From IMG/VR virus record IMGVR_UViG_3300033064_001545, positions 1-23,829 of that record: DNA of 23,829 nt. The stretch is one strand, 5' to 3'. Under the pieces are notes generated by a model. It saw nothing but the letters and a program-made list of their open reading frames with translations, made no database searches and was not told where the DNA came from. The position numbers and the translations under genes are program-made. Position 1 is the first letter of the stretch, and each line of letters opens with the position of its first letter. The stretch comes from a virus. This document shows positions 712 through 23,816 of this stretch, piece by piece.

Positions 712-3000
712 CTATGCCGAACTTGTAGTAAGGGGGAAGTAGAGTTCTGCCGTGAATGTCTGCCGCGCCGAGAAGCGGTCGGGCATATCCCCCTCCTCTT
801 CGACTATCCGGTAAATCGCATCAGTCGTTATGTTCATCTTGCTAACCTGCACCTGCACGAACTTGTTGGGGCCGAGGCTCGTATCAGGTGTCATGCTCCA
901 CTTGATACGGCTCGGCATTTCGCCCAGTTCATTCCAACGCCGCCATCCCGCCTCAAGTCCCGTTGCCATATCCGTCTCTCGTATAACCTCCCACAGGTCG
1001 CAGCCGATGAAGTTGCTGCTGCTTGAGGTCAGGTGCGAAGGTTGGTCAGCCCACAATACCGACTGCTCCCTGCCGCCAGTCGCAACAATCAGCAGCAGGT
1101 AGTTACGGAACTCTTCGCGAGAGGAAGTGTGTTCCACCATCCACGCGAAGTCGGCGGCGGTAGCGGTATCATCGTCAAGTAGCCAGTCCCGCGTGCCGCT
1201 GTAGCTTGGCCGCACTCGCAGGAAATACTGGCTAGTCTCCGCATCCCAACCCCACTCGCGGCCCATACTACCCACTACTTGGTCGAGCGCATCGGGCACG
1301 GTAGCAGTCGGGTCATAGGCATGGGCGTGTTCGTCCTGCGGCAGGCCTATCGGTATCACCGGATCGTCAACTGTATCCACCATCGCCAGGATGTCCGTCA
1401 GGCGTGCGGCTGGTTCGCCCGCATTGTAGAGTGTGGCATGTACCCAAGTAGCAAGTTGGTCGCCGCCCGCCGCTGTAACCCACGCCATATACTTCTTGCT
1501 CAACCGCGCGTCAATCGGGTCTTGTACTGGCAGAGTGATATATGCCGCCGTACCTACCTCACGTTCGCCCTCCCGCAACCTTCCGAGGTCACCGACATGC
1601 CCTTGGAATTTCTGCGCCTTAGCGTCACCGTGCTTGCCGATACTGACGGTGACTAGCTCCTGCCCTTGCCAGGTGCGACTGCCAGCAGTGTCGCGGACGG
1701 AGATTGTTGCGCTCTGCCCGCGCCCGCTAGCGTTGAGGGAATAGCTGAGAGACTGGACATCTTGGTCGCCCGTGAGCGAGACCGGGCTGCTGTTGGCCGC
1801 CTGCCGATGGGCATTGATTGCCATAGTCGCGACGTAGCAGACGGGGCAGGAATTCTTCGCGGCGGTATGACCGTAAGTGAAGGTGGTCTTGGCGGCTATC
1901 TCAATACTGCCCACTAATCCGCAGGCTTCCGTGCAAGTGTTGTACCCAGTAATACAAGCCTGTATAGCATCGGGGTCATCGCCAGCGTCTGTAACGCAGG
2001 TCTCATAAGCTGCGAGGCAGGCATTGAGGCAATCACGGTCGAGTTCCCCTACGCTTCCGGTCTCGGCGGTAGTGCGAACATACCAGTAATCATTCGGCTC
2101 CCAACTATGATTGTGCCAACTACGGTCTTCGGCGGCCACGTTGTACAATTGGTCATTGAGCAGCAACCACGGGCGGCCAGTGACGGAGGACGAGCTTGGG
2201 TATTCTATCTCTGCGGCATACACTTTGCACGGAACGCCGACAACTGAGATGACTAGCCGGCCCGCTGGAATTGGCCAGGGGGTACTAGGCCGAATCACCC
2301 ACGCATTGTCAACGCCGAGCCGCCTGATAACCCACGCGCCGTCCAATAGCTCAAACCAGAATTCGTCAACCAACTCCTCGTTGGCCGTCTTGTACTGCGA
2401 GCTTCCTGCACCTTGCCAGGTTGATAGTACCTCGGAGTAGCCCGTCGTGCGATTGGTGGCGAGCATAAACGGGTACTTGTATGTCTGGTCAGCTATCGGG
2501 ACGAACCACTCGTACATGTGACCTTCAGTCAGATAGGACACTAAGATATACGACGAGGAGGCGGTGTCGTCGTCTCGCTTTGGCGGCGCTGCCCTCGCTG
2601 TAACGATACCGAAATTCGGTTGCACTAACCAGTTCGTACTAATGATACCGACTGCGAGCGGGTCGGCGTTATACATATCCGCAAATTGCGGGCGTTTGTC
2701 CAGGATAGCTACGCGCGTGCGCCGCCAGTTGCCATAATCTCTCCACCAGCCGCGCCCCTCGCCCTCGCTTCCTGTTGCCCACGTCATGTCCCCCTGCGGC
2801 AACCAACCGGCAGGCTTGACACCACGGATAGCCTCGATGTATTCCGTGCCGTCGTGGCGGGCCTCCGCTTCCTCGTTACCCCCATAAACACCGGGGCGCT
2901 TGTGGACTTTGTGATACCAGTCCTTATGTAGGCCGAAGAGGTCAATAGCGCCTTCAGCGTCCGGGTTGTCTATGACTATTTCGGCTTCGTAAAAGGGCAA
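712..3000 (-). CDS. Large tail hub/baseplate-like protein with Cys-rich helical-hairpin motif
   Basis: I place the start at TTG 3000, seven bases after a GAGGAG ribosome site that overlaps the upstream stop. An in-frame TTG at 3018 inside the upstream gene would add six residues. The product is about 762 aa. Around residues 320-361 is a symmetric cysteine pattern, C-x3-C-x6-C then C-x6-C-x3-C, resembling a helical hairpin stapled by disulfides. A CPVC motif follows roughly 20 residues later. The C-terminal half (from DQDVQSLSYSLNASGRG onward) has the look of hub-type beta domains, ending in an IYRIVEEEGDMP segment. Position directly after the BNR-containing protein supports a tail-tip hub or baseplate role. 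There is no lysozyme or endopeptidase motif I can identify. The function is inferred from size and gene order. Confidence 0.75.
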   Translation of the reverse strand: MPFYEAEIVIDNPDAEGAIDLFGLHKDWYHKVHKRPGVYGGNEEAEARHDGTEYIEAIRGVKPAGWLPQGDMTWATGSEGEGRGWWRDYGNWRRTRVAILDKRPQFADMYNADPLAVGIISTNWLVQPNFGIVTARAAPPKRDDDTASSSYILVSYLTEGHMYEWFVPIADQTYKYPFMLATNRTTGYSEVLSTWQGAGSSQYKTANEELVDEFWFELLDGAWVIRRLGVDNAWVIRPSTPWPIPAGRLVISVVGVPCKVYAAEIEYPSSSSVTGRPWLLLNDQLYNVAAEDRSWHNHSWEPNDYWYVRTTAETGSVGELDRDCLNACLAAYETCVTDAGDDPDAIQACITGYNTCTEACGLVGSIEIAAKTTFTYGHTAAKNSCPVCYVATMAINAHRQAANSSPVSLTGDQDVQSLSYSLNASGRGQSATISVRDTAGSRTWQGQELVTVSIGKHGDAKAQKFQGHVGDLGRLREGEREVGTAAYITLPVQDPIDARLSKKYMAWVTAAGGDQLATWVHATLYNAGEPAARLTDILAMVDTVDDPVIPIGLPQDEHAHAYDPTATVPDALDQVVGSMGREWGWDAETSQYFLRVRPSYSGTRDWLLDDDTATAADFAWMVEHTSSREEFRNYLLLIVATGGREQSVLWADQPSHLTSSSSNFIGCDLWEVIRETDMATGLEAGWRRWNELGEMPSRIKWSMTPDTSLGPNKFVQVQVSKMNITTDAIYRIVEEEGDMPDRFSARQTFTAELYFPLTTSSA

Positions 3001-3010
3001 AGCAATCTCC

Positions 3011-6000
3011 TCAGTCAATCACGTCTGCAACTGCCCACGTCTCTCCGCCGTCGTCGCTGACCATTGGCCTGACCTTGTTGTCTAACGCCACCACTACTAG
3101 CACACGCCCATCGGGTATGGGTACAACGCCAGGCTGCTGCGCGTCGGCGGCAGCAATCTCTTTGACTGTACCCCCTCCGCCGAATTCACATAGCGTCTTT
3201 CCCCCATCATCGCTGCGCTGATACCACATCTTAGCCTCGCTATAGCCCGCGATATGTATGACTCCGCTACGGTCGGCTTTCGCATTCACTAAGGTCAACC
3301 CGTCGCCCAGCAATGCAACCGCCTCCCATGTCTCGCCCTGATTGATACTGATAAATGCGGCGGTCTTAGCCCTGCCCCGGTCATGTCCTGTGACTACAAT
3401 CCTGTCATCGGGCAAGCGCGTCACACTAGGATTATCCCACGGGCCGGTTGTAGCGCCATCCATGACGAGCCGCTTATGTACGCTACCCGCCTCGGGTTCT
3501 ATCGCTCCGTAACGCCAGCCCTCCAACCCGTCGTCAACCTGCGCGTAATAGATGCTTCCGGCATCCATCCATGCCAGGTGGGTGATACCGTCTATGCGCC
3601 CGATGTCAATGTCCGGCTGGCCGAAGAGCGAAAGAAACTGACAGGCCCAGGGGGTCTGCGCGAGTCTTGTAATCGGCGTCGGCGCGTCAATGAAGGCGGG
3701 GGTATCCCCCACCACCCGGAAGCTGTTCGGGTCTTCGCTGAGGCTGCTCGTGATATTGGTCACGTCGGCGATGAAGTCGCAGGCGGCAGGCGTGGTCACA
3801 CCCTCGGCGTCGGCGGCAACAACCTTCGCGCTTGTAGTCATCTGCTTAGGCAAGTCAAGGCCTGCTGGCAGTGGTATCAAGAAATCGCGGGCGTACCCAT
3901 CGGCCATTGTGCAGGTGATTGTGTAGGTAGCATCGGCAACGATGGTTGCCGGTATTACCTTGGGTTGGACATAGACGGTATTGACTAACTCATTGGTGGC
4001 GGCAATGGCAGCGTTATCAGCCCCGTCGGTGAAGGCGTTGCCACTCCACGTTGCCAGTGTCGGGTGTTGAACAACCCAACGCCCGCCAGAAATATAAGCG
4101 TCGGTTTCGAGGTAGTCAACGGGCCGCAGCCACTTGTCGAGTAGCCGGTCGCTAAGGTTGTTGGGGCGATAGCGAAGGGCGCGAACATCATAGTCGTCAC
4201 TCGCTACGGAACTGCCCACACTTGGGAGTCTTACCCAACTTCGTGCATCCCTCCAGCACAACGTCTGCATACAGTAGCCGTACAGGTAACCGGAAGCAGA
4301 CGGCCAACGCCAGACAGGACCGTGGCAATAAGGGCAGGTGTTGCCCGTGATACAGCCTACGTGTACATTGTCATCCCCGCCGTCACCCGACAGCACCCGC
4401 ACCTCGTGCCGCCGCCAGTCACCCCATTCCAATCCATAGCGGTCAGCCTCCGTGAGGTTCCCGGAATGTATGCGCGTGAAGTGCCCGTCAACGATATTGC
4501 CGGATAACTTGCCGCCGACGAGTTTTGGCGATATTCGGGAGGAGCCGATTTGTTGATCGTACAGTGGTGTGGCTGGGTCTTGGTACAGACCGTTGGGATC
4601 ACCAGTGCGGCTGGACGTATTTGGCGCGACATTGAGGACACTTTCGTCATGCGCTTCTAGGTCCCAGATATAATCGCCATCTGCGCTCCACTGCCACGTA
4701 TAGTCACCCGTAGGTAACCCTGTTCCAGGATCGATTTCTTCTATCTGTTCCGGCGCAGGCCTCACACGGACAGGTTCCGACCTTACTCCGCGTGGGATAC
4801 TCTCGAAGCCGACACTAGGCTGCCGCCCGTTTCTTTCTACCAATAAGTACGGTGGGCGCATCGTTTGCCAGTAGAGGTCGCGGTGGGCAGTGTCATCCCT
4901 GAACCAGACGTAGCCGCCCGCCTCCTCGGGGTCTATGAGTATGCAACGACCTCTAGCAGTGACTTCGTAACATATGCGGTCTGGAGGGTCGGCATCGCGC
5001 CGTACATAGAATCCAGTATCATTTAGTACAACAACGCAAGGCCAAGTGCCCCCAGATGCCGTCATGTCCGCCTCTGTCCAAGCAATCTGCGAACCGCTAC
5101 CGATATACCCCACGGGTGCTTCGCTATAGAGGTCTGCACTAACTGGATCGCCCGCCTCATCATAGGCGTATAGCCAATATGTATCTGCTGGCGGCGCAGC
5201 TAGTGCAGGCAGCGCCACCTCTGTCGTTGCACCCGCAATGACCGTACAGGTTGTACGAGCTGCGATTTGCGTCCAGTGTAAGTCGCCCTCGATGCGTTCC
5301 ACGCAGATGTATTTACCAGGTACAAGTCCCGTGATTGTACCGTTGCCCGCGCCATCGAGTTTGACTCTAGTGGTAGGGGCAGGAGTACCAGCAACGTCCT
5401 CATGCCACGCATGTGCGACAACACCAGGCGGGTCCCCGCTGGGTGTCCCCGTGAAGGCGATGGTGCCGCCCTCAACATTCAGGGTGACATCCTCGCCCTC
5501 AAGCACCCGCACCCGCTCGCCGCGATGGTAGCACCACACGGTAGCTGCGTATTCATCCGGCTTATCCGCATGGTCATCGCGCAGGTCATTCTCTCGTTGG
5601 AAAAGTGCGCCGTGTCCGTTCGGAAAGTATATGTCGTGCAGCCCGGTGCCATTAGCGCGATTCTGCATAACTCTGCCGGCGGCATTGGTCATCCACTCGC
5701 CCGTCGTGCCGCTACCCGTGTCCACGAATATGTCTGCGCCGTATTGGTGCTCCACTATCCCGTCGGCCACAGTCTGGCGCTCTACGGTGAATGTGACATA
5801 CTCGTATGCCTGCACTACGCCATCGTGTTCAATGGTGATGTTCGGGCATTTCCAACCCATCACCAACGTCTCGCTGATGGGCTTAGTGCTCCCCGGCGAA
5901 GGCGCAATTCGCAGGCCGAGTGCAGGATGATAGACGCCGACTGCGTACTTGTCGGGTTCGTCAATGCCCTGCAGGACGAAGGCGCAGAAGTTGGCATCAG

Positions 6001-11543: not shown

Positions 11544-12398
11544 CTACGCGATTCCGATTGCGCCTGCTGTATTCGGCGTTGCCTCAAACTCGACAGTGTA
11601 GAACGCTACACCATCTGCTACCCACGGCACGCTCCAGCGCGTCAGTGTCATATTGGCCAACGTGATAGTCACAGTTACCGGCGTCGCGGAAGTGAACGCC
11701 AAGCTCGCACCGTTGGTGGCAGTCGGCGCGTCGGCCCAGCCATCATCAAGGCCAGCAGAGACAGCCGTACCGGGAGGCACGCCTAGCTCAAAACTGCCGC
11801 GCACGCGCTCGGCACCGATGACAAGTTCCTCGGGGTGACGCTGCGCCGCTGCGGTCGCGGTATCAAGTGAACTATAGGGCGTCAGGTTATTCTCGACGGT
11901 GACGCTGAAACTCTGCATGGAATATGTGGCACCGTTGAGCGTGCAGACGCCTTGGTACCATTGCAGGATAGCGCCAGCATCAACTGTCTGATAGCCAGCA
12001 CCCGTTATCTGACTCGGTGTCCTGGAAATCCATTCGATGGTTGACATGAGCGGCTGACCTATCCGGCCCTCCAATGTCAGCCTGTTTATCTTGGAACTCA
12101 CATGCCGGAACTTGCTGGTGGTATCGCCCCCCTCGAAGGTGAGGTCGGTCAGCGTTGGCGTGGTTACACTGGCCCGCAATGCCAGCGCCATTAGCGTAGC
12201 CGCAGTAGGTGCAAACGTGGCCGTACCGGTCGCCCCCACCATCCCATACTGAGCGTCCGCCGCGCCCGATAACGAGAACAAGTAGTCTAGGCCAGTGTCC
12301 GTCTCCCACGATCCCCCTGTGACTTTGCCAGCAGTCGCGGTGACGCTTGCACCCTCGCCGTAGTCAAGCCCCTGTACAAATCCTGTGCGTAACGCCAT
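11544..12398 (-). CDS. Major tail tube protein, second copy
   Basis: This 284-aa protein starts MALRTGFVQGLDYGEGAS, with AGGAGA eight bases upstream of the ATG. It is the same length as the gene just upstream and, by hand alignment, roughly 78% identical to it. Most differences fall in the last 80-85 residues; residues 1-200 are nearly collinear without gaps. High Ser/Thr/Gly content, beta-rich character and position directly before the chaperone genes indicate the siphovirus tail tube protein, which polymerises in hexameric rings around the tape measure. Two near-equal copies suggest either a mixed tube or a specialised second ring protein. The C-terminus, often a surface-exposed Ig-like or decoration region in tail tubes, is where the two differ most. 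The assignment to the tube is inferred, without a search. Confidence 0.82.
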   Translation of the reverse strand: MALRTGFVQGLDYGEGASVTATAGKVTGGSWETDTGLDYLFSLSGAADAQYGMVGATGTATFAPTAATLMALALRASVTTPTLTDLTFEGGDTTSKFRHVSSKINRLTLEGRIGQPLMSTIEWISRTPSQITGAGYQTVDAGAILQWYQGVCTLNGATYSMQSFSVTVENNLTPYSSLDTATAAAQRHPEELVIGAERVRGSFELGVPPGTAVSAGLDDGWADAPTATNGASLAFTSATPVTVTITLANMTLTRWSVPWVADGVAFYTVEFEATPNTAGAIGIA

Positions 12399-12487: not shown

Positions 12488-13342
12488 CTAGCTAATCGCG
12501 ATGGAGTTAGCCGTGTTCGGTTTGCATTCCATTTCCACAGTTGCGAAGGCGACACCATCGGGCACGAATGGCATACTCCAGCGCGATATTGTCATGCCGG
12601 CCAGCGCGATGGTTACTGTGGTGGCGGCGGCATTGGTGAATGCCAGGCTCGCGTCCTGAGTGGCGACTGGCGCATCAGCCCAACTATCATCAAAGCCAAG
12701 CTCCACGTTTGCGGTAGGCGGTACACCTATCTCAAAACTGCCGCGTACACGTTCGGCGCCAATGACAAGCTCCTCAGGAAGGCGTTGCGAATCCGTAGTC
12801 GCGGTATCCAACGAACTGTAGGGAGTGATGTTATTCTCGACCGTGATGCTAAAACTCTGCATTGAATAGGTAAGACTGTTGATTGTGCAGACGCCCTGAT
12901 ACCATTGCATAATTGAGCCAGTATCAACTGACTCAAAAGCAGCACCCGTTATCTGACTCGGTGTTCGCGCAATCCACTCAATCGTTGACATTAGCGGTTG
13001 CCCTACCCGGCCTTCCAGCGTCAGGCGGTTTATCTTAGCGTTCACATGCTTGAACTTGCTAGTGGTGTCCCCGCCTTGAAAGGTCAGGTCGCTTAGTGAA
13101 GGCGAGGTTATACTGGCGCGGAGGGCTAGGGCCATCAGCGTAGCCGACGTAGGCGCGAAGGTGGCCGTGCCGGTAGCACCTACCATGCCGTACTGTGCAT
13201 CCGCCGCGCCACTCAATGAGAACAGGTAGTCCAGCGCAGTGTCGTTTTCCCAACTGCCGCCGCTGACCTTACCCACGGTCGCAGTAACCGAGGCGCCCAC
13301 ACCATAGTCGAGTCCTTGAACAAATCCCGTGCGTAGTGCCAT
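12488..13342 (-). CDS. Major tail tube protein, first copy
   Basis: This 284-aa protein starts MALRTGFVQGLDYGVGAS. A GGGAG/GAAAG ribosome site lies upstream. It is the gene-order equivalent of lambda V: after the tail terminator-like protein, before the chaperones. It lies 35-40 nt downstream of a strong intrinsic terminator and ends in TAG. The 89-nt spacer to its paralogue holds no gene and no clear hairpin with a T-run. Its sister copy has the same length and about 78% identity, so the pair arose by tandem duplication. Separate retention of both copies with gap-free alignment argues that both are functional. Nothing in the sequence shows which copy dominates in the virion. Confidence 0.83.
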   Translation of the reverse strand: MALRTGFVQGLDYGVGASVTATVGKVSGGSWENDTALDYLFSLSGAADAQYGMVGATGTATFAPTSATLMALALRASITSPSLSDLTFQGGDTTSKFKHVNAKINRLTLEGRVGQPLMSTIEWIARTPSQITGAAFESVDTGSIMQWYQGVCTINSLTYSMQSFSITVENNITPYSSLDTATTDSQRLPEELVIGAERVRGSFEIGVPPTANVELGFDDSWADAPVATQDASLAFTNAAATTVTIALAGMTISRWSMPFVPDGVAFATVEMECKPNTANSIAIS

Positions 13343-14902: not shown

Positions 14903-15487
14903 TTACACAATCAACTTGTCCAGTCGCCTGTATCTATCCAGCACCATCTTGACTTGACTGGCAAACCCACTGCTCTCATCATAGCTGATAGATACCCCGT
15001 CCGCCGCCTGTGCAGCTATGCCTATCCGTTCGCGATGGTCAATCTCGAAGAGTATCTGGTCAATCAGCGCGGTCTTGAGGCCAGCAGGGAATGTCGCCTC
15101 ATCATAGCCGCCGCTGTACACTATCTTGACTGAGGCGTCGCCATTGTAGAACACCGACTCCCCATTGAATAGTTGCACCTTGCCAGCGTCCTTGTACTCG
15201 GTCTCGTCTATCACATCATCATCGGCGTCAATAGTCACCGCCGCTACCTGCTCGTTGTGGGTCAGCGTAGTTATCGAAACCCACGGAGGGTTGTCCACGT
15301 AGAAGAAGCTGGGGTTGCCTACAATGTCATGGTGCTCAGTGCGCGTGGCAAGCTCAAACATACGCATACAGTAGGCTTCAGCCTTGGCGGTGACCGAATC
15401 AATCCTGCGCAAGATACGAGCGTCAAGCTGCGCACCCGCGATACCACCTTCGTCTTTGACATCATCGAGCGTTATCAGGTCGGGCAT
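14903..15487 (-). CDS. gp6-like head-tail connector protein
   Basis: This 194-aa protein begins MPDLITLDDVKDEGGIAG with GGAGAG just upstream. The opening (LITLDDVK, then a long helix RILRRIDSVTAKAEAYCMRMF) and a late helix pair (GLKTALIDQILFEIDHRERIG, SQVKMVLDRYRRL) match the layout of gp6/gp15-type connector (adaptor) proteins. These bind under the portal and form the first ring of the neck. The middle insertion (NPPWVSITTLTHNEQ to YSGGYDEATFP) is the usual beta segment of this family. It overlaps the upstream small gene by 13 nt. It marks the head-to-tail transition in the gene order. Confidence 0.85.
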   Translation of the reverse strand: MPDLITLDDVKDEGGIAGAQLDARILRRIDSVTAKAEAYCMRMFELATRTEHHDIVGNPSFFYVDNPPWVSITTLTHNEQVAAVTIDADDDVIDETEYKDAGKVQLFNGESVFYNGDASVKIVYSGGYDEATFPAGLKTALIDQILFEIDHRERIGIAAQAADGVSISYDESSGFASQVKMVLDRYRRLDKLIV

Positions 15488-15756
15488 GTTCTCTCCTTCT
15501 CCGCCTGCCGTTCCTCAAAGAACCTGCGAGTCTCTTGGAGCCAATATCGAATATTCTGATAGCCGATATGGTCTGGCATAACTTGCAGGATGTTTTCAAT
15601 TGCTACGATATTCTGAGTGTATATCAGGCTTTCCCACGTTAGCATATCGCAGACAACATCCAGTATGGGTTCGCGCCAGCGCGGGCGCATATGGCGCCCG
15701 CCTGAGGCAAGGCCTTGTGCGATACCTCGTGCCTCCTGCTGTAAGTCAGGTTGCAT
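15475..15756 (-). CDS. Small hypothetical protein upstream of the connector
   Basis: This 93-aa protein starts MQPDLQQEARGIAQGLASGG after a strong GGAGG site nine bases upstream. It looks largely helical, with hydrophobic stretches (EPILDVVCDMLTWESLIY, IVAIENILQVM) and a basic/acidic tail (RRFFEERQAEKE). Its TGA stop lies inside the connector gene, giving a 13-nt overlap and likely translational coupling. It starts 36 nt after the RF2-like gene. No family is recognised. A minor neck or scaffold-type role is possible from position but unproven. Confidence 0.65.
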   Translation of the reverse strand: MQPDLQQEARGIAQGLASGGRHMRPRWREPILDVVCDMLTWESLIYTQNIVAIENILQVMPDHIGYQNIRYWLQETRRFFEERQAEKERTCPT

Positions 15757-15792
15757 CGCCGCCCGCCTCCGTGTGCGTACTCAAACATGCGC

Positions 15793-16302
15793 CTACGCAT
15801 CTAGGCCCAACAGGTATGCAGTAACGAATTCGCCGAGTTTACCGTCGAGCACCGCCTGCGCATCCACAACCTCAACACTGGTACGGTGGTCCTTGACCAT
15901 TGTGTACGGATGTAATACGTATGACCGTATCGGCGGATTGCTCTTGGGTACGTGTGGAATATCGCAGCAGTCGTCGATATCCGGCATTACACTAACTGCG
16001 GCAAAGCTCGTGTGTCGGCGCTTCGAAGCATCGAATGGCGATATCCTCACTAGGCGATGGACACCCGCCTCGCCATTGAGTTGACCATAGGCACCAAGAC
16101 CACGGACTGTAGCTACAACCAGGCGAATGCCAGGACCATCACCGCGAATTGCAGAACCCACTGTGAACTCATAGCCATTGATTTCGGCAAAATGCCGATA
16201 CATCCGCAGCAGTATTGCCGCCCAAGCGCACGCCTCGATGTTACCGCCCCCCGCATTCACCGACAGAACTGCTGACTTTTCATCCAGCACTAGTTTATAC
16301 AT
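15793..16302 (-). CDS. RF2-like protein lacking the GGQ domain
   Basis: The ATG at 16302 lies 4 nt after the upstream TGA with GAGG about 10 bases before it; the 169-aa product starts MYKLVLDEKSAVLSVNAGG. It aligns with bacterial release factor 2 from the start of domain 2: NAGGGNIEACAWAAILLRMY (16-35), GVHRLVRISPFD (80-91, containing the SPF stop-codon-recognition tripeptide at 88-90), RRHTSF (95-100). After MPDIDD the alignment jumps over about 110 residues of domain 3, including the GGQ loop, to a 13-residue linker, then resumes at IRSYVL (125-130), VKDHRT (136-141) and QAVLDG (149-154), the RF2 C-terminal region. Domain 1 is also absent. It should be able to read UGA/UAA but not hydrolyse peptidyl-tRNA. 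The frame is intact, so this looks like a maintained architecture rather than a decayed gene. Function is inferred. Confidence 0.88.
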   Translation of the reverse strand: MYKLVLDEKSAVLSVNAGGGNIEACAWAAILLRMYRHFAEINGYEFTVGSAIRGDGPGIRLVVATVRGLGAYGQLNGEAGVHRLVRISPFDASKRRHTSFAAVSVMPDIDDCCDIPHVPKSNPPIRSYVLHPYTMVKDHRTSVEVVDAQAVLDGKLGEFVTAYLLGLDA

Positions 16303-16306
16303 CTGC

Positions 16307-16942
16307 TCAGTCCTCGTGGACCTCCAGCTTCTTCTCATACTCCAGCCGCCCGCGTCGCGGCCAGCAGCCAATCGCGTTCCCCTCAAACGGGTACTCGTAC
16401 AATATCCAGTTAGCCCTGTCTTCCATATCGCCGTCGATGTCTTCCATCCCGCGCATTGTCAGTATGCCAGTAGCGCGCTCCCCCTCACGCGACCACTCTA
16501 TCGCCCAGACAATGACCTCCGCCGCCACATCAGTGCTTACCGTTTCTGGGCAACTAATCTCGACCTCGTCCATGTTTTCGGGATAGCGGTCATGTTTGTT
16601 GAGCATCATCAGCGGGATGGGCTTGGGTGGCCTCAACACTAGCAGGTAGGTCACAGCCCAGTCCCCCGCCTCCGCAATCTCTATGCCCACTATCTGCTCG
16701 GGCTCTGTCTCAAGCAGCGCCGCCGCAGTTAGCTTGCCGAGTTGCCCGTTGCGGAGTGTTGCTGATGGACTGAGTACGATTTCGGATAGCGCCCGCCCCT
16801 CCAGAATTGCCAAGGTGACTTCGCTGCGGTAGTCGAGCCAGCGTTGCGCGATAGCATCACGAGCAACCATTTCGGCGGCCCGCCAGACTAGCTGCCAGTT
16901 GAAGTGCTTGGTCTCAGACTTCGTCTCTGCCGCTGTTGTCAT
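16307..16942 (-). CDS. Hypothetical protein upstream of the RF2-like gene
   Basis: This 211-aa protein starts MTTAAETKSETKHFNWQLVW. The ATG overlaps the end of the preceding 51-aa gene by 29 nt; the AGGGG next to it is too close to be an ideal ribosome site, so translational coupling is likely. The N-terminal third looks helical (LVWRAAEMVARDAIAQRWLD). The centre contains IVGIEIAEAGDWAVTYLLVL, suggesting alternating strands. The C-terminus (NWILYEYPFEGNAIGCWPRRG) is aromatic. It ends in TGA 4 nt before the RF2-like start, so the two are probably co-translated. I recognise no family. Confidence 0.72.
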   Translation of the reverse strand: MTTAAETKSETKHFNWQLVWRAAEMVARDAIAQRWLDYRSEVTLAILEGRALSEIVLSPSATLRNGQLGKLTAAALLETEPEQIVGIEIAEAGDWAVTYLLVLRPPKPIPLMMLNKHDRYPENMDEVEISCPETVSTDVAAEVIVWAIEWSREGERATGILTMRGMEDIDGDMEDRANWILYEYPFEGNAIGCWPRRGRLEYEKKLEVHED

Positions 16943-17069
16943 CCCCTGTATCAGTCCATCTACCCAGCAACTGCTTTACAGTTCGCATAGTCTCAATTAG
17001 CTTTGTGTATTCATCAGTGGGTATCTGCCACAACACCCTTTCGCCCGAACAGATAGTAGCCATCATCAT
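16914..17069 (-). CDS. 51-aa protein sharing a module with a nearby gene
   Basis: This small gene starts with three consecutive ATG codons (MMMATICSGERVLWQI) that overlap the stop of the gene before it. Residues 6-36 (ICSGERVLW then VKQLLG) resemble the C-terminal part of the 133-aa protein at 17226-17627 (ICLGDEEVLRL then VKELLG). The tail is polar and acidic (TDTGDDNSGRDE). Its TGA stop lies inside the following gene. Overlap on both sides and the shared module support it as a real gene despite its size. Function is unknown. Confidence 0.72.
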   Translation of the reverse strand: MMMATICSGERVLWQIPTDEYTKLIETMRTVKQLLGRWTDTGDDNSGRDEV

Positions 17070-17272
17070 CACCGCCCTTGTTCCCATTCAAGTTGCTCTA
17101 TGCGCCTCGTCAAGCTCCTGATGCGGGCATCTATTAGCCGCAGGGCTGTTGACAGAGAGATTGCTGCCGTGGGGCTAAACTCTGCAAAACTATCAGCAAC
17201 ATCCTCCTCCGTACAACCGCCGTAGCTAAGTACCAGCTCCTCTGTTGACAGCACCTTCGTCTTTGCCATCAT
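17069..17272 (-). CDS. Small coiled-coil-like protein ending in triple UGA
   Basis: This 67-aa protein starts MMAKTKVLSTEELVLSYGG; the second ATG (17269) is an equally good start. GGGGCGAGG precedes it. The C-terminal 30 residues (LSTALRLIDARIRSLTRRIEQLEWEQGR) have a heptad-like pattern suited to a short coiled coil. Its frame ends in three consecutive TGA codons (17063-17071), while the next gene's three ATGs occupy the overlapping frame. It overlaps the preceding gene by 47 nt. Function is unknown. Confidence 0.7.
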   Translation of the reverse strand: MMAKTKVLSTEELVLSYGGCTEEDVADSFAEFSPTAAISLSTALRLIDARIRSLTRRIEQLEWEQGR

Positions 17273-17627
17273 CCTCGCCCCTTTTACTATCCTGCTCGCT
17301 GCCCTGTTCGTCAGTATTCTTACCCAACAACTCCTTCACCATTTCCAAGTCATCCATAGTCAGCCGCAACACCTCTTCATCACCCAGGCAGATAGCAATA
17401 TCCTGACCGGCGGGGAAGCTTATGTATGTAACGCCGAGGGGCTCATATACAGCATCCAGCCGCTGTTCCTCGGGACTGCGCTCAGGCCCTGCATTGCTTG
17501 CGGTAACAGTTAGGTCAATCTCGGAAGGACCGTACAACCCATACACGATGTCCGGCATATCGCCCTCATCCTTCTCCACCTCATGCACGATGTTCAGTAC
17601 ATTGCCATCATTCTTCTCCGCCATCAT
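17226..17627 (-). CDS. Acidic hypothetical protein with module shared by the 51-aa gene
   Basis: I start it at the double ATG 17627/17624 (MMAEKNDGNVLNIVHEVEKD), preceded by GGGGCGAGG; a longer open frame upstream has a low-complexity Arg-rich stretch and overlaps the previous gene heavily, so it is unlikely. The product is about 133 aa. Residues 35-110 carry a mixed region (PSEIDLTVTASNAG, YEPLGVTYISFPAGQDIAIC) followed by LGDEEVLRLTMDDLEMVKELLG, which resembles the downstream 51-aa protein. The tail is very acidic and polar. Function is unknown. Confidence 0.7.
   Translation of the reverse strand: MMAEKNDGNVLNIVHEVEKDEGDMPDIVYGLYGPSEIDLTVTASNAGPERSPEEQRLDAVYEPLGVTYISFPAGQDIAICLGDEEVLRLTMDDLEMVKELLGKNTDEQGSEQDSKRGEDDGKDEGAVNRGAGT
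17265..17281 (-). promoter_or_regulatory. Repeated translation-initiation cassette, copy 1
   Basis: The minus-strand sequence GGGGCGAGGATGATGGC occurs identically at this site and at 17620-17636, each serving as ribosome site plus double ATG start within the overlap of two small genes. The identity suggests a duplicated start cassette. Confidence 0.75.
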
Positions 17628-17901
17628 CCTCGCCCCCGTTGTCGCCCTTGGCTTCCTCGGCGCTTGCAATGACCTTCCGGTTCTCTGGCGCAACCCTCTT
17701 CGACGCCGTTGCGGGAGCGGCGCGCAACCGAATAGTCTGCGCCAGGACAAATGCGTCCATGTCCTCCCAAGTAGTGGGGTCGGCACGCAGTATATCAGCC
17801 TCGCCATCGCTTACTGTAACGCAATCGCCCTCCGCGACATCCGGCGACCCTATCACACCATCCGGCAACTTTGCATCCTTCTTAGCTCGGAACCTCGGCA
17901 T
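17608..17901 (-). CDS. Small protein paralogous to the end of its upstream neighbour
   Basis: I start it at ATG 17901 (MPRFRAKKDAKLPDGVIG), with GGAG seven bases upstream; a longer version from 17955 lies in the upstream gene. The product is about 97 aa. Residues 3-49 align with residues around 115-160 of the neighbour: FRAKKDAKLPDGVIG against FKAMCDAYLPHGVEG, and EADILRADPTTWEDMD against EAEIMRADADNWEEMD. It overlaps neighbours on both sides and ends in TGA. The C-terminal tail is acidic (GGEDDGGEE). Function is unknown. Confidence 0.72.
   Translation of the reverse strand: MPRFRAKKDAKLPDGVIGSPDVAEGDCVTVSDGEADILRADPTTWEDMDAFVLAQTIRLRAAPATASKRVAPENRKVIASAEEAKGDNGGEDDGGEE
17620..17636 (-). 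promoter_or_regulatory. Repeated translation-initiation cassette, copy 2
   Basis: This is the second copy of the 17-nt cassette GGGGCGAGGATGATGGC (first copy at 17265-17281). Here it starts the 133-aa protein inside the end of the 97-aa gene. Confidence 0.75.
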
Positions 17902-18400
17902 CGGCTTGCTCCATTTCGATTTGGGCCTCGTCCATCTCTTCCCAGTTGTCGGCATCGGCGCGCATTATCTCAGCCTCGCTAGCGGTGACGGTAACGTAGC
18001 CCTCCTCGTAAACGATAGTTGGGCCTTCAACGCCATGTGGTAAGTAGGCGTCACACATTGCCTTGAATGTTACCCCCACGTTACCAGTCTCCTGCTTGCG
18101 CTGAATGGCGGCCTTGGCAAACTTGGCTACCGCCGCCTCATCATCTTGCCAGTCCGCGTTCTCGATTGAAGCCGCTAGCAAGACAAGCGCGTTATCGAAT
18201 GTCGGCGCATTTGCCCGGATCACGTCGTACCTATATTGGTATTCGCGGTTGGGCCACAACTCCTTGCGTGCTACCGCAGTGACGCCGCCGCGCAATGTCA
18301 TGTTCTTCCCGTAGGTGATACCACTCTCCCATTCAATGACCAAGGCGCATCCGTGTGATTCGAGCTCCTGTAGTAACGCGATTAGCTTAGAGTGCTCCAT
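17882..18400 (-). CDS. Hypothetical protein with recurring RAD-x3-WEEMD module
   Basis: This 172-aa protein starts MEHSKLIALLQELESHGCAL with AAGGGG and AGGAAG upstream; its start overlaps the upstream glycosidase-like gene by 14 nt. The N-terminal part looks helical, with LVIEWESGITYG at 20-31. The middle (RYDVIRANAPTFDNALVLLAASIENADWQDD) is mixed. Near residues 115-160, FKAMCDAYLPHGVEGP and EAEIMRADADNWEEMD recur in the next gene. It ends in TAA inside that gene. No family is recognised; tandem paralogy within an overlapping array is the main feature. Confidence 0.72.
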   Translation of the reverse strand: MEHSKLIALLQELESHGCALVIEWESGITYGKNMTLRGGVTAVARKELWPNREYQYRYDVIRANAPTFDNALVLLAASIENADWQDDEAAVAKFAKAAIQRKQETGNVGVTFKAMCDAYLPHGVEGPTIVYEEGYVTVTASEAEIMRADADNWEEMDEAQIEMEQADAEVPS

Positions 18401-19580
18401 CTTCCTCCGCCCCTTTCTCTATCCGCGCAGCCTCCTCGTTGCTCCACGGCTTCAGGTCGAGCAACGGAACCTCAGGCTCATCGGCAGTCTCCATATCCGC
18501 AAACGCCGGCTTGCCCTCCCTGCCCTTGTGCGCCCATTCCTGTATCACATCATAGGTCGGCTTCTTCTTCCCGTCACTCGTCATCAGTCCGCAGAAGCCG
18601 CCCCAGTGTTTGGCAGCATTCAAGTCGGGGTCATGGTCAGATAGTTCGTGTACTATTACAACCTGAAACCCATGCCGCTCCATTATCTCAAGGTCGGTCT
18701 CATACCACTCCACGGCCTCTTCGCACGTAAGCTGCTGGACGCCCTCCTTGACTACGACGCTTTTTAGGTATTCCTTGAACTCCTCCGGTATATCTGGCGG
18801 TAGCGTCGGGTAGCCCCACTCAGTACAGGCAAAGGGTTGATTGGTGCCCGCCGCCTCAAGGTTCCTGCGGATTTCGGCGTATCCTCTTTCGGCCAAATCG
18901 GTAGCGCGGGCGCGGTCGCGGATGTGCATGAAGTACGGATGCCAATTGGCGACCTCGAAGCTCTCTGCCGCGCCCTCCTGCAACAGGCCGAGGATGAAGT
19001 TTATGTCCAAGTCCATCCCATAGCCGCCATTCCAGACGCGCGCCGACGGCATGACATCATGTATCGCTTCGTGAATAGCAGTCAGGATAGCCGGATATGC
19101 CTGGTGCTTGTCAAACATGCCTCGGCTTACCCAGGCGCAACGGTACTCGCCCCAGAACTCATAGTCCTCGCATAGGTCTTTGTGCAACTCGACGAATGCC
19201 CTGGCATTGTCGGCGAGCCGACCGTTTGCGATGGCCGAAGCAACCTCTTGATTGTGAATGATGATTTCTTGGATGCGTTCGGGGCTGTCGCCAGGTTGCT
19301 TCCCCAGCAGCTTGCCCTCCTCATTCAGCCGTACCTGCGCGTCAATAGCGATAGTGCTCAGGTACTCAACCGAACCGTGCATGTCTAGTACGCAACGCAG
19401 GCCGGCCTCGCGCGCCGCCTCAAGCCGTGGCCGCATATCATCAACACGCTGGTCCTCAATGATATTCGCCCCGATTTTAGTCCAACTGAAGCCAAGGTCC
19501 TTACAGTGCCCGGTATAATCATCTAGTTCCCGATATGGCCCGGAGTGTTCTTTGTTGAATGCGTGTATGCCGATTTCCAT
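18387..19580 (-). CDS. Clan GH-A-like TIM-barrel protein (putative glycosidase)
   Basis: I start it at ATG 19580 (MEIGIHAFNKEHSGPYREL), nine bases after AAAGGGGC; a TTG nine codons earlier is weaker. The product is 397 aa. Landmarks fit a clan A glycoside hydrolase barrel: LGFSWTKIG near 29-37, an acid/base candidate E145 in FWGEYRCAW, NWHPY at 212-216, and a nucleophile candidate E254 in CTEWGYPT. No signal peptide is seen, so it would be cytoplasmic or virion-delivered. It could act on host or capsule glycan or on phage or host sugar residues. Family number and substrate cannot be assigned by eye. Confidence 0.78.
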   Translation of the reverse strand: MEIGIHAFNKEHSGPYRELDDYTGHCKDLGFSWTKIGANIIEDQRVDDMRPRLEAAREAGLRCVLDMHGSVEYLSTIAIDAQVRLNEEGKLLGKQPGDSPERIQEIIIHNQEVASAIANGRLADNARAFVELHKDLCEDYEFWGEYRCAWVSRGMFDKHQAYPAILTAIHEAIHDVMPSARVWNGGYGMDLDINFILGLLQEGAAESFEVANWHPYFMHIRDRARATDLAERGYAEIRRNLEAAGTNQPFACTEWGYPTLPPDIPEEFKEYLKSVVVKEGVQQLTCEEAVEWYETDLEIMERHGFQVVIVHELSDHDPDLNAAKHWGGFCGLMTSDGKKKPTYDVIQEWAHKGREGKPAFADMETADEPEVPLLDLKPWSNEEAARIEKGAEEDGAL

Positions 19581-19618: not shown

Positions 19619-20428
19619 CTAGTCTGTACTCAAGTGCGCCGTCACTAAGCGCATCGCATGGACTACGTCTATCACTACCGCAAAGTCCGCTGCGGGCGAC
19701 GGGTACGAACCATAGCCGACAGAGAGGCCGACCGCCTGCGGCACGTGTTGCGAAATTGTATGTGCGTCTGACTGCTCGCCCTCTTCCGCCCAGGAATAGG
19801 CCAGGCCCAGCTCCCGCGAGAATATCATCAGGCGGTCAACGAACCAGTCCGAGGCAGTAGCGCGGCGGTTGTACACCGATACAATGTCCTGCTTGCCGGG
19901 CCGGTCGAGACACAAGCAGTAGTCCAAGCCTGCGAAGAAGTCCGCATCAACCGCCGTAGCTCCCCCGTTCTCGTTAGCCCGTTGTGCGCTCAGTAGCACA
20001 CGGAAGGGCAAGTTGGTGACTTCAGCCAATGCCAGGATTATCGCGATGCCACACTTGTCATCTGCGCCGATGCAAAGCGTCTCGCCGCCATCATCCTGGC
20101 CTTCGATTTGTAGCAACCCTTCCTTCTCCGGGAAGGCCAGTGCCGCTGAGTTCAACCGCGCCAATACCTCTACATCGCGCATCTGCTGAGCGGTGTCCAT
20201 GTGGGCGGCCAGCAGCGTTGCCTGTGCCCCCTCGTCACCGCGCGAGGCTAGTAGGTTACCATTGGCATCCTGCTCCGCCGTGAAGCCTGCGTCGGTAAGG
20301 GCAGTGCGACAGTAGAGCCGGACGCCCTTCTCCGCACCGCTCGGCGATGGTAGTAGGAATAGCTGCTTCAGGTGTTGCGTAATTGAGAGGTACTCATCTA
20401 GCCCCGACGACTGCACCCGTTCGCCCAT
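19619..20428 (-). CDS. M20/PepT-like zinc peptidase with altered catalytic residues
   Basis: This 269-aa protein starts MGERVQSSGLDEYLSITQHL after AGAGGGG, 10 bases upstream. It follows the PepT/M20 family: AAHMDT (75-79; zinc ligand H76, catalytic D78), GADDKCGIA (121-129; bridging D123), and a CLCLD ligand (D175). Deviations are clear. Where family members have an EE pair before the GA motif, this has NENGGA (152-157), so the catalytic base glutamate is Asn. The C-terminal HT/HS-x-E zinc site is replaced by SPAADF (244-249). It may be inactive, or have changed its function to peptide binding. The family is otherwise M20; a peptidase in a phage island is unusual. Confidence 0.8.
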   Translation of the reverse strand: MGERVQSSGLDEYLSITQHLKQLFLLPSPSGAEKGVRLYCRTALTDAGFTAEQDANGNLLASRGDEGAQATLLAAHMDTAQQMRDVEVLARLNSAALAFPEKEGLLQIEGQDDGGETLCIGADDKCGIAIILALAEVTNLPFRVLLSAQRANENGGATAVDADFFAGLDYCLCLDRPGKQDIVSVYNRRATASDWFVDRLMIFSRELGLAYSWAEEGEQSDAHTISQHVPQAVGLSVGYGSYPSPAADFAVVIDVVHAMRLVTAHLSTD

Positions 20429-22077: not shown

Positions 22078-23016
22078 TTAGTCAGTCCCCTTTGTAGCTC
22101 TGTTTGCTGCGGCCTCTCGTGCTCGTTTCCGCCTTGCCCGTAAGCTCGTCTTGGTACGTGTTCGCATCATCTTGATATGCGCGCGGGCCTCTGGTTCATA
22201 CGGCTTACCCGGTATGCTACTGCTGTGCGTCTCCTCCGCGTAGAAGTCATCCAATTCGACCGGGCGCACCTTGGCAGAGGTCAGGTAGCCGTGAGGTATC
22301 AGTAGTTGCGTATTGTTCGCGGGGAATACATCTCCATCGCTTGTCAGGTGTTCCCTCCCGTGGTCAACGCCCATCTGCCGCAGGCTACGCAAGATGTCCC
22401 CAGGTATATAGCCAGCCTCACGCAAGCTCCGTATCGAGTCATCGCCATTGTTGCTGTCGCTCTTGCTTATCTTGGCACCGGTAAGCTCATGGCGTATGGT
22501 CGGCATATACTGCTGGCATGGCGTCTTCCAACCTAGCGCGCAACAGAAGTAGTCGTAAAGCTCCGTCTGCGCTATCAAGTCGGCCCCTCTGTAGAATCCG
22601 CCAATCTCCATTGTGTGGTCATCAACAACGCTGGTGAATGTAAGCCAAGGATGGTATGGGTGTTCAATTGCCGGTGTTGCATCCATGTTGGTAACCGCGC
22701 GGTTTGTGCCCCAGAAGCGTGGCACCTGCGGGACTAGCCTCTGGTTCGCTTCCCAGTGTGCATCGGCGTTCCTCGTGCTCCACATCACATCGTCCGGCGA
22801 CAACCCCAGCCAAGCCAAGTCCTCAATGTAGTGTTCAACAAGCGTGGCTATGGAGTGGCACCCCTTCGCGTATTGCTTCAAGTAGTACGGCGCGTCGTGC
22901 AGGTGCAAGATGAACTTGCCACCAGTGTGAAACGCCTTTGCCCAGTTGGCTTCGATGATCCGGATATGCCCGATGTGCAGGTCGTGATATATTGCGATGG
23001 AAAAGCGTGTGTTCAT
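22078..23016 (-). CDS. Glutamyl-tRNA synthetase-like catalytic core without anticodon-binding domain
   Basis: I start it at ATG 23016 (MNTRFSIAIYHDLHIGH), since the longer frame would cross the terminator; a G-rich ribosome site precedes it. The 312-aa product has class I synthetase signatures: HIGH at 14-17, GGKFILHLHD at 32-41, DLAWLGLSPDD at 66-76, FYRGADLI at 141-148, and KISKS at 182-186. This order and GluRS-like spacing match glutamyl or GluQ-type synthetases (GluRS is about 470-500 aa; GluQ-RS about 300). The RIEDTD loop of GluRS reads HLHDAP here, so glutamate recognition may differ. The C-terminal 60 residues are not an anticodon domain but a basic tail (RTRTKTSLRARRKRAR). A role on an RNA or a protein substrate is inferred. 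Confidence 0.82.
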   Translation of the reverse strand: MNTRFSIAIYHDLHIGHIRIIEANWAKAFHTGGKFILHLHDAPYYLKQYAKGCHSIATLVEHYIEDLAWLGLSPDDVMWSTRNADAHWEANQRLVPQVPRFWGTNRAVTNMDATPAIEHPYHPWLTFTSVVDDHTMEIGGFYRGADLIAQTELYDYFCCALGWKTPCQQYMPTIRHELTGAKISKSDSNNGDDSIRSLREAGYIPGDILRSLRQMGVDHGREHLTSDGDVFPANNTQLLIPHGYLTSAKVRPVELDDFYAEETHSSSIPGKPYEPEARAHIKMMRTRTKTSLRARRKRAREAAANRATKGTD

Positions 23017-23099: not shown

Positions 23100-23816
23100 C
23101 TACGGTTGGGCTTCGATGGCCGCCCACCAGTTCAGGCCCGACATCATTTCGCCCTGAGTCAACCCCTTCACATGGCCGTCGCGGAAACACATATTGTTCC
23201 TGTTGCCATGCGCGGCGTACTTTGCCTGATACGGTTGTGCTGGCGTGCCCTTCTCCGCCCCCTTAGGCTCGTAGAAGTAGGTGGCGTGGCCGTAGAAGTC
23301 GCAGCTATCAGGGGATACCATCAGCTCAGGCGGGATGGATATGTCTGCTACCATCATCGCGTTCGCCGCCGACAGCCCCATGTGTTCATAGACATTGGTC
23401 GCATCTATATTCCACTGCGGGGTCTGGCCGGGCCATGAGCCGCCGCCAGCCCAGGGCAGCCCGTAGGTTGTCTTCTTGCCCTTGCCGTCGCATACGAATA
23501 CGGGATTGATGTCGTTCGTCCACCTGTTCCTGATAGGCAACCCATAAGGTCCGAGTTTGTGCAGGCCATTCGAACCGGGGTAGTCGGTATCTCCAGCATT
23601 CCAGGTAAGCATCGGGCCGAACCCGTCATGGTCTCCGCAGTATTGGATAAGAGCCAGTCCAATCTGCTTGAGGTTGCTGACACAGGTTGCCGTCTTTGCC
23701 TTCTCCCGCGCCTTTGCGAAGACGGGGAAGAGGATCGCCGCCAGCACCGCGATTATCGCGATGACTACCAGCAATTCAATGAGCGTAAAGCCGAGTTTTG
23801 ATTTGTAGGCCTTCAT
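23100..23816 (-). CDS. Prepilin-type N-methylation (DUF1559-like) protein
   Basis: This 238-aa protein starts [18 protein letters not shown] after GGAGAG, near the window edge. The prepilin peptidase site is G-F at 9-10 with Glu at mature position 5, followed by a hydrophobic helix to about residue 35 and [12 protein letters not shown]. The C-terminus contains [17 protein letters not shown], typical of DUF1559-type prepilin-like proteins of Armatimonadota/Planctomycetota. It would be processed by a host prepilin peptidase and assembled in a type II secretion or pilus-like structure. It is unexpected next to phage genes and is isolated by its own terminator, so it may be a cargo gene. A host-chromosome boundary nearby is the alternative. 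Confidence 0.88.

Follow-up and report, generated by a model that had tools for sequence, protein, structure and literature searches.

Release factors link codon reading to peptide release via domain movement, and a natural protein that consists of the reading half only would uncouple the two and reveal whether the decoding superdomain can by itself locate a stop codon and stay bound to it. Whether a phage carries such a protein, and to what end, is the question raised by a gene at positions 15793-16302 of the viral contig IMGVR_UViG_3300033064_001545 (23,829 nucleotides (nt); this whole stretch is referred to as the window). Its 169-aa product, P0001, derives from release factor 2 (RF2, encoded by prfB), but the hydrolase domain with the GGQ motif is missing. 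This GGQ-less phage RF2 is real, structurally clean, under constraint and, judged together with a second protein (L014) from another viral contig, evolved twice. A blocker of ribosomal A sites at stop codons would be its best single explanation.

The observation of a GGQ-less gene derived from RF2 was confirmed by its domain content. In Pfam, P0001 matched PCRF (PF03462) only, with residues 6-103 covering profile positions 97-194 of 194 (E=4.5e-31; 108.6 bits, passing the cut-off of 24). In a phmmer search against solved structures, residues 6-116 aligned with RF2 domain 2 and residues 124-164 with the C-terminal part of the same chain (6szs, 9fy1), the two pieces corresponding to B. subtilis RF2 118-228 and 317-357 with the intervening region skipped; because RF2 is matched in two pieces, the chain passes directly from domain 2 to domain 4. 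When E. coli RF2 numbering is anchored on the SPF motif (205-207), residues 233-322 (about 90 residues, domain 3 with GGQ) are missing and nine residues stand instead. A seven-residue stretch at this junction, IPHVPKS, is possibly left over from domain 3, where the sequence is ITHLPTG (3/7 identical). P0001 begins at the equivalent of E. coli residue 118, with domain 1 (approximately 1-117) missing too, and the aromatic residue of the switch loop (W319 in E. coli; the closest cellular RF2 has F) is gone. P0001 thus amounts to the bare superdomain 2/4, the codon-recognition unit described from RF2 structures (PMC5378476). It resembles RF2 in the sequence and predicted fold of domains 2 and 4, in SPF, H214/T215 and the IRSYV...KDxRT stretch, but without domain 1, domain 3, GGQ and switch loop no known release mechanism is possible. 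The features of RF2 that it lacks are GGQ/domain 3 (PF00472), domain 1 and a score at the curated cut-off of the NCBIfam prfB model (TIGR00020; 194.6 bits versus 370). As GGQ and domain 1 are both missing, the term release factor must not be used for P0001.

The initial annotation of this locus had already described a protein derived from RF2 that lacks the hydrolase domain and had placed SPF at residues 88-90, and both statements hold, given the PCRF match, the lack of PF00472 and the retention of most codon-recognition residues. The open reading frame (ORF) is likewise real, but its strand has to be corrected to minus, as the plus strand across this interval is interrupted by stops whereas the minus strand is intact. 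The proposed architecture of domains 2/4 without GGQ stands, although the loss of domain 1 had been overlooked, and the estimate of about 110 residues replaced by 13 gives way to about 90 replaced by nine (P116-P124).

Neither an assembly error nor a separately encoded catalytic half accounts for this gene. It is identical in three assemblies, namely the window, the 78,240-b contig IMGVR_UViG_3300032738_000111 (G001), which is 100% identical to the window, and IMGVR_UViG_3300033279_000010 from the same phage (99.98% identical), and an assembly error is thereby ruled out. A fourth contig of this phage stops short of the gene. A 141-b repeat at both ends of G001 indicates that this contig probably represents the whole circular genome, about 78.1 kb in length. 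The PF00472 profile matched neither the window nor the 78,240-b contig, and a split partner carrying GGQ, which had been raised initially as a way in which the proposal could fail, is therefore ruled out for that contig.

A search of viral contigs with an RF2 alignment from which domain 3 had been removed yielded the second case, L014 (IMGVR_UViG_3300025687_004659, 6,069 b), which encodes a 178-aa protein of domains 2 and 4 that is 46% identical to P0001; the remaining new viral matches reaching domain 3 were full RF2s with GGQ. L014 scored 152.6 bits with PCRF, while PF00472 aligned over its last 28-30 positions only and under the cut-off. The gene is preceded by a Shine-Dalgarno sequence (AAAGGAG) and its neighbours match phage families, forming a phage-like gene cluster. 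The two domains are joined by ANASSAA ahead of a preserved switch loop (KTDIGWGNHIRSYV), and the cut points at the junction (...VVDD-ANASSAAKTDIGWGNH-IRSYV...) differ from those of P0001. A Fpg/Nei-type DNA glycosylase (2471-3373) and a class 3 lipase (1247-1996) are encoded beside this gene.

The two proteins have separate cellular origins. In a tree of 69 proteins and 152 columns of domains 2 and 4, P0001 grouped with four RF2s of Armatimonadota (support 100/99), to which it is up to 66% identical over the 152 aligned columns, and L014 fell within the RF2s of Pseudomonadota (support 99/95), the closest of which are 71-75% identical. Monophyly of P0001 and L014 was rejected by the approximately unbiased test (p-AU = 9.7e-8), and a single family is thus ruled out. 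Separate tree positions and differing junctions indicate that the same domain set was cut from RF2 twice. Decay confined to a single genome, the other way in which the initial annotation might have failed, is weakened by this independent case from another bacterial lineage but is retained as a rival below. With two independent origins, it is the design itself, rather than one accident, that needs explaining.

The best matches to P0001 in Armatimonadota genomes were 63, 59, 59 and 55% identical across domain 2, and all Armatimonadota matches listed lay in frames of at least 250 aa, most of about 350. The gene therefore looks like a host-derived RF2, and the host of the phage is probably an armatimonadote since P0001 falls in the Armatimonadota clade, an assignment drawn from this one gene. 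Cargo genes resembling a glutamyl-tRNA synthetase and a peptidase were uninformative about the host, being only about 30% like their counterparts in the donor clade, and no relative of the terminase was found in 26 genomes of the order to which the RF2 donor clade belongs, in a search without a positive control.

Both truncated proteins retain most of the residues expected to matter for decoding. Among 43 columns invariant in cellular RF2, P0001 keeps 38 and L014 41. Where four close relatives agree, P0001 differs at 6/50 highly conserved and 20/40 weakly conserved columns (Fisher p = 1.3e-4), and its substitutions thus avoid RF2-conserved columns. This lowers the probability of decay without removing it, since the constraint may partly predate the truncation. 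In RF1 the stop codon is read by G120, E123, R186, H197 and T198 (PMC3974865), and the RF2 counterparts G137, E140, R203, H214 and T215 are present in P0001 and L014, as are S205 and P206. F207 is kept in P0001 and is Y in L014 (SPY), as in some full-length viral RF2s. The invariant switch-loop residue Q322 has been lost in parallel (P in P0001, H in L014), as would be expected of both if the placement of domain 3 is no longer needed.

Structure models fit the same architecture. AlphaFold2, run with an alignment that included full RF2s, gave a predicted local distance difference test (pLDDT) score of 86.7 and a predicted template modelling (pTM) score of 0.83 for P0001 and for L014, with a weak linker. 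The top Foldseek matches to RF2 chains reached TMq values of 0.83-0.84 for P0001 and about 0.82-0.83 for L014, and the best 50 PDB matches of P0001 were bacterial or mitochondrial factors of the RF1/RF2 type. The initial view of a structurally clean excision is in line with these values; as RF2 was contained in the input alignment, the models indicate compatibility with the fold of the RF2 decoding superdomain and are no independent proof of it.

The design is rare. A motif pattern (MY, TSF, IR[ST]Y and KDxR, with a gap of 63-93 nt at the position of domain 3), which had zero matches in dinucleotide shuffles, was found in 2.9 million viral contigs only in the lineages of the window phage and L014. 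A looser domain 4 pattern returned the same two lineages, and patterns with a longer linker or of a GGQ-less RF1 type added no further case in viral contigs. Zero GGQ-less RF2 genes were found with the pattern in genome contigs of 84,980 prokaryote species. This absence is meaningful within the pattern and its linker length because the two flanking halves detect real RF2 loci: on full-length RF2 they recovered 61/80, 29/29 and 15/15 cellular loci (76-100%) and 8/12 viral ones. The short version was not found among the phage and plasmid tblastn matches listed, in which two-piece matches contain domain 3, as they span about 625-745 nt versus 507 for P0001. A structure search of BFVD gave no match at E<0.001. 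One entry of that database, A0A6J5T9T2, is a phage protein of 164 aa that bears the name PrfB; its structural match was not significant, and by its size it is possibly of the opposite, GGQ-only type.

As the initial annotation had supposed, no system of this design, neither a GGQ-less phage RF2 nor an RF2 consisting of the decoding superdomain only, was found described in the open-access literature. ArfB/YaeJ/ICT1 and mtRF-R (C12orf65) are also members of the release factor family with fewer domains, but they keep the GGQ domain without codon recognition and are thereby the mirror image of P0001. RF2 genes on viral contigs are known as full-length versions, for instance in Lak phages and in L015-L026, and those examined could terminate because GGQ is retained.

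P0001 could be a selected minimal module for stop-codon recognition (domains 2 and 4) that competes for the A site at UGA and UAA, cannot release the peptide and thus delays termination, a reading that we place a little short of an even chance and for which we infer ribosome binding, codon specificity, the effect on termination and the benefit to the phage. P0001 would enter the A site at UGA or UAA, cover the stop codon and the 30S decoding centre, and shut out RF1, RF2 and tRNA. Release would be impossible for the bound protein because the peptidyl-transferase centre is out of reach without domain 3. The outcome would be slow termination, queues of ribosomes and a degree of readthrough at the stops that RF2 reads, one of which is the UGA in the frameshift site of the host's prfB gene. 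A CTTTGAC frameshift site is present in the nearest cellular prfB genes and in the nearest Pseudomonadota RF2 (L149), and the supply of host RF2 would therefore depend on the same UGA. A similar outcome is known from apidaecin, which sequesters release factors, with ribosomes queuing at stops and reading through (PMC7544508). Apidaecin, however, is an exit-tunnel peptide that traps genuine release factors after release, whereas P0001 would be a competitor derived from one. If P0001 is a blocker, it would be a viral way of attacking translation termination for which the open-access papers searched gave no counterpart; it could also serve as a genetic tool to tune readthrough, and would test in compact form which contacts determine release factor affinity. 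The wider proposition that RF2 genes captured by phages from different hosts have repeatedly become stop-codon-specific A-site blockers, an anti-termination class that reads stops without release and stalls or redirects host translation at UGA and UAA, is put forward a little more tentatively, as somewhat less likely than not.

Several observations weigh against a stop-codon blocker. Affinity may be low because contacts with the 50S subunit are lost together with domains 1 and 3, among them the contact with the L11 stalk that domain 1 provides (PMC5378476), and sufficient affinity without them is the weakest step of the model. At the tip of helix alpha5, G137 and E140, the equivalents of RF1 residues contacting U1, are kept, but GGTEAxDW has become GNIEACAW (G138N, T139I, D143A), by which two invariant residues between them are altered, and the switch-loop aromatic is lost. 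Since the U1-contacting tip has diverged in P0001 (though not in L014), its codon specificity may have shifted. Avoidance of UGA and UAA might be expected in the phage's own genes if P0001 strongly poisoned RF2 stops, but its ORFs end in TGA (49), TAG (32) and TAA (24) with no such avoidance. The one circular contig found in a terminase search, distantly related with a terminase 62% identical and almost nothing else in common with the window phage, is without the P0001 gene. Each lineage is represented by one genotype (three near-identical assemblies and one 6-kb contig), and the G+C content at third codon positions of the P0001 gene (0.54) is below the 0.60-0.71 of eight other phage genes checked.

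Some of these points would equally suit a remnant, that is, a captured host prfB from which the catalytic and N-terminal domains were recently deleted and which is now decaying, with conservation left over from before the deletion. The long branch of P0001 (0.66 versus approximately 0.1 in its kin), the substitution of two invariant residues at the tip of alpha5, the low third-position G+C content and the rarity of a gene confined to one phage genotype are what such decay would leave behind. Yet the ORF has no internal stop or frameshift, a Shine-Dalgarno sequence and a tight operon placement are in place, the N-terminal and internal losses both fall on domain borders, substitutions spare conserved columns, and L014 repeats the architecture independently from another donor phylum with other junctions, which together make a remnant unlikely, though it keeps an appreciable share of the probability. 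Perhaps the superdomain has instead been repurposed to bind mRNAs or stop contexts and regulates late phage genes, for example by coupling or readthrough in the structural operon. Plastid PrfB3, an RF2-derived protein that has lost GGQ, has no terminator role and stabilises petB mRNA (PMC5897788), provides a precedent, and both the location within a run of structural genes and the several phage gene pairs in frame over a single UGA (such as terminase to portal) would fit; about one third of neighbour pairs, however, are in frame by chance, and this nuclear plant gene has lost SPF as well as GGQ, whereas the phage proteins keep the codon contacts and are without domains 1 and 3 altogether. Such regulation is considered improbable.

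Even less probable is a factor for hibernation or protection late in infection that would occupy A sites regardless of the stop codon, as Balon does, a hibernation factor of the aeRF1 family and a release factor relative without GGQ (PMC10901736). Balon has lost the stop motif, binds EF-Tu and shares no sequence kinship with P0001, which keeps codon-contact residues and has neither an EF-Tu-binding domain nor any further Pfam domain. A decoy for rescue factors that bind RF2 at domain 2 and the switch loop (ArfA, BrfA or similar), by which ribosome rescue would be blocked, is the least credible of the alternatives. ArfA touches V198, F217 and W319 of RF2 (PMC5378476), and F217 is present in both proteins and W319 in L014; a decoy, however, need not retain codon-contact residues, the switch-loop aromatic is lost in P0001, and no such rescue factor was identified in the presumed host.

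The features of the locus are collected in Table 1. The P0001 gene and the gene upstream form a tight minus-strand operon, and with capsid-side cargo genes on one side and a head-tail connector gene on the other the locus lies in a run of structural genes.

Table 1 Features of the P0001 locus, in positions of the window
Feature	Position	Strand	Evidence or remark
GGQ-less RF2 gene (P0001), 169 aa, domains 2 and 4 only	16302 (ATG)..15793; stop codon 15793-15795	minus	translation, PCRF, phmmer, prfB score
RF2 domain 2 (codon recognition), residues 6-115	15958..16287	minus	Pfam, phmmer, tree, conservation
Tip of helix alpha5, residues 18-24	16231..16251	minus	GGGNIEA; RF2 consensus GAGGTEA
SPF stop-codon motif, residues 88-90	16033..16041	minus	
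HTSF, residues 97-100	16003..16014	minus	E. coli RF2 214-217
Linker at the domain 3 site, residues 116-124 (PHVPKSNPP)	15931..15957	minus	low model confidence, block 111-120 pLDDT 54
RF2 domain 4 part, residues 125-169 (IRSYVLHPYTMVKDHRT...)	15796..15930	minus	second phmmer stretch
Upstream gene, 211 aa, no function assigned	16307..16942	minus	TGA ends 4 nt before the P0001 ATG
Shine-Dalgarno-like GAGG and GGAGG	16312-16315 and 16321-16325	minus	within the 3' end of the upstream gene, ahead of ATG 16302
Head-tail connector/head completion protein, downstream	14903..15487	minus	PF05135 E=2.8e-4

The same cargo region encodes a stand-alone catalytic domain of a class I Glu/Gln-tRNA synthetase (22078-23013, minus; 311 aa) with HIGH (LHIGH) and KISKS motifs, of a size like GluQ-RS and without an anticodon-binding domain. 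A 269-aa protein like peptidases of the M20/M42 type (19619-20428, minus) matched mostly N-terminal parts of the profiles and resembles a trimmed host enzyme. On G001, the terminase and portal genes (17637-18989 and 15528-17627, minus) share a frame with one UGA and three codons between them, and two further gene pairs (40687-42465 and 38314-40440) likewise share a frame interrupted by one UGA; such pairs are possible readthrough targets, although in-frame neighbours are expected by chance. A TnpB-like protein of the IS200/IS605 family, judged from its sequence, is encoded at 35385-36968 (minus) of the same contig. Within the window, tandem paralogues of 284 aa each (11544-12398 and 12488-13342, minus; 78% identical) are probably major tail proteins, and a pilin-like phage protein whose N-terminus has a type IV prepilin motif (TIGR02532) is encoded at 23100-23816 (minus).
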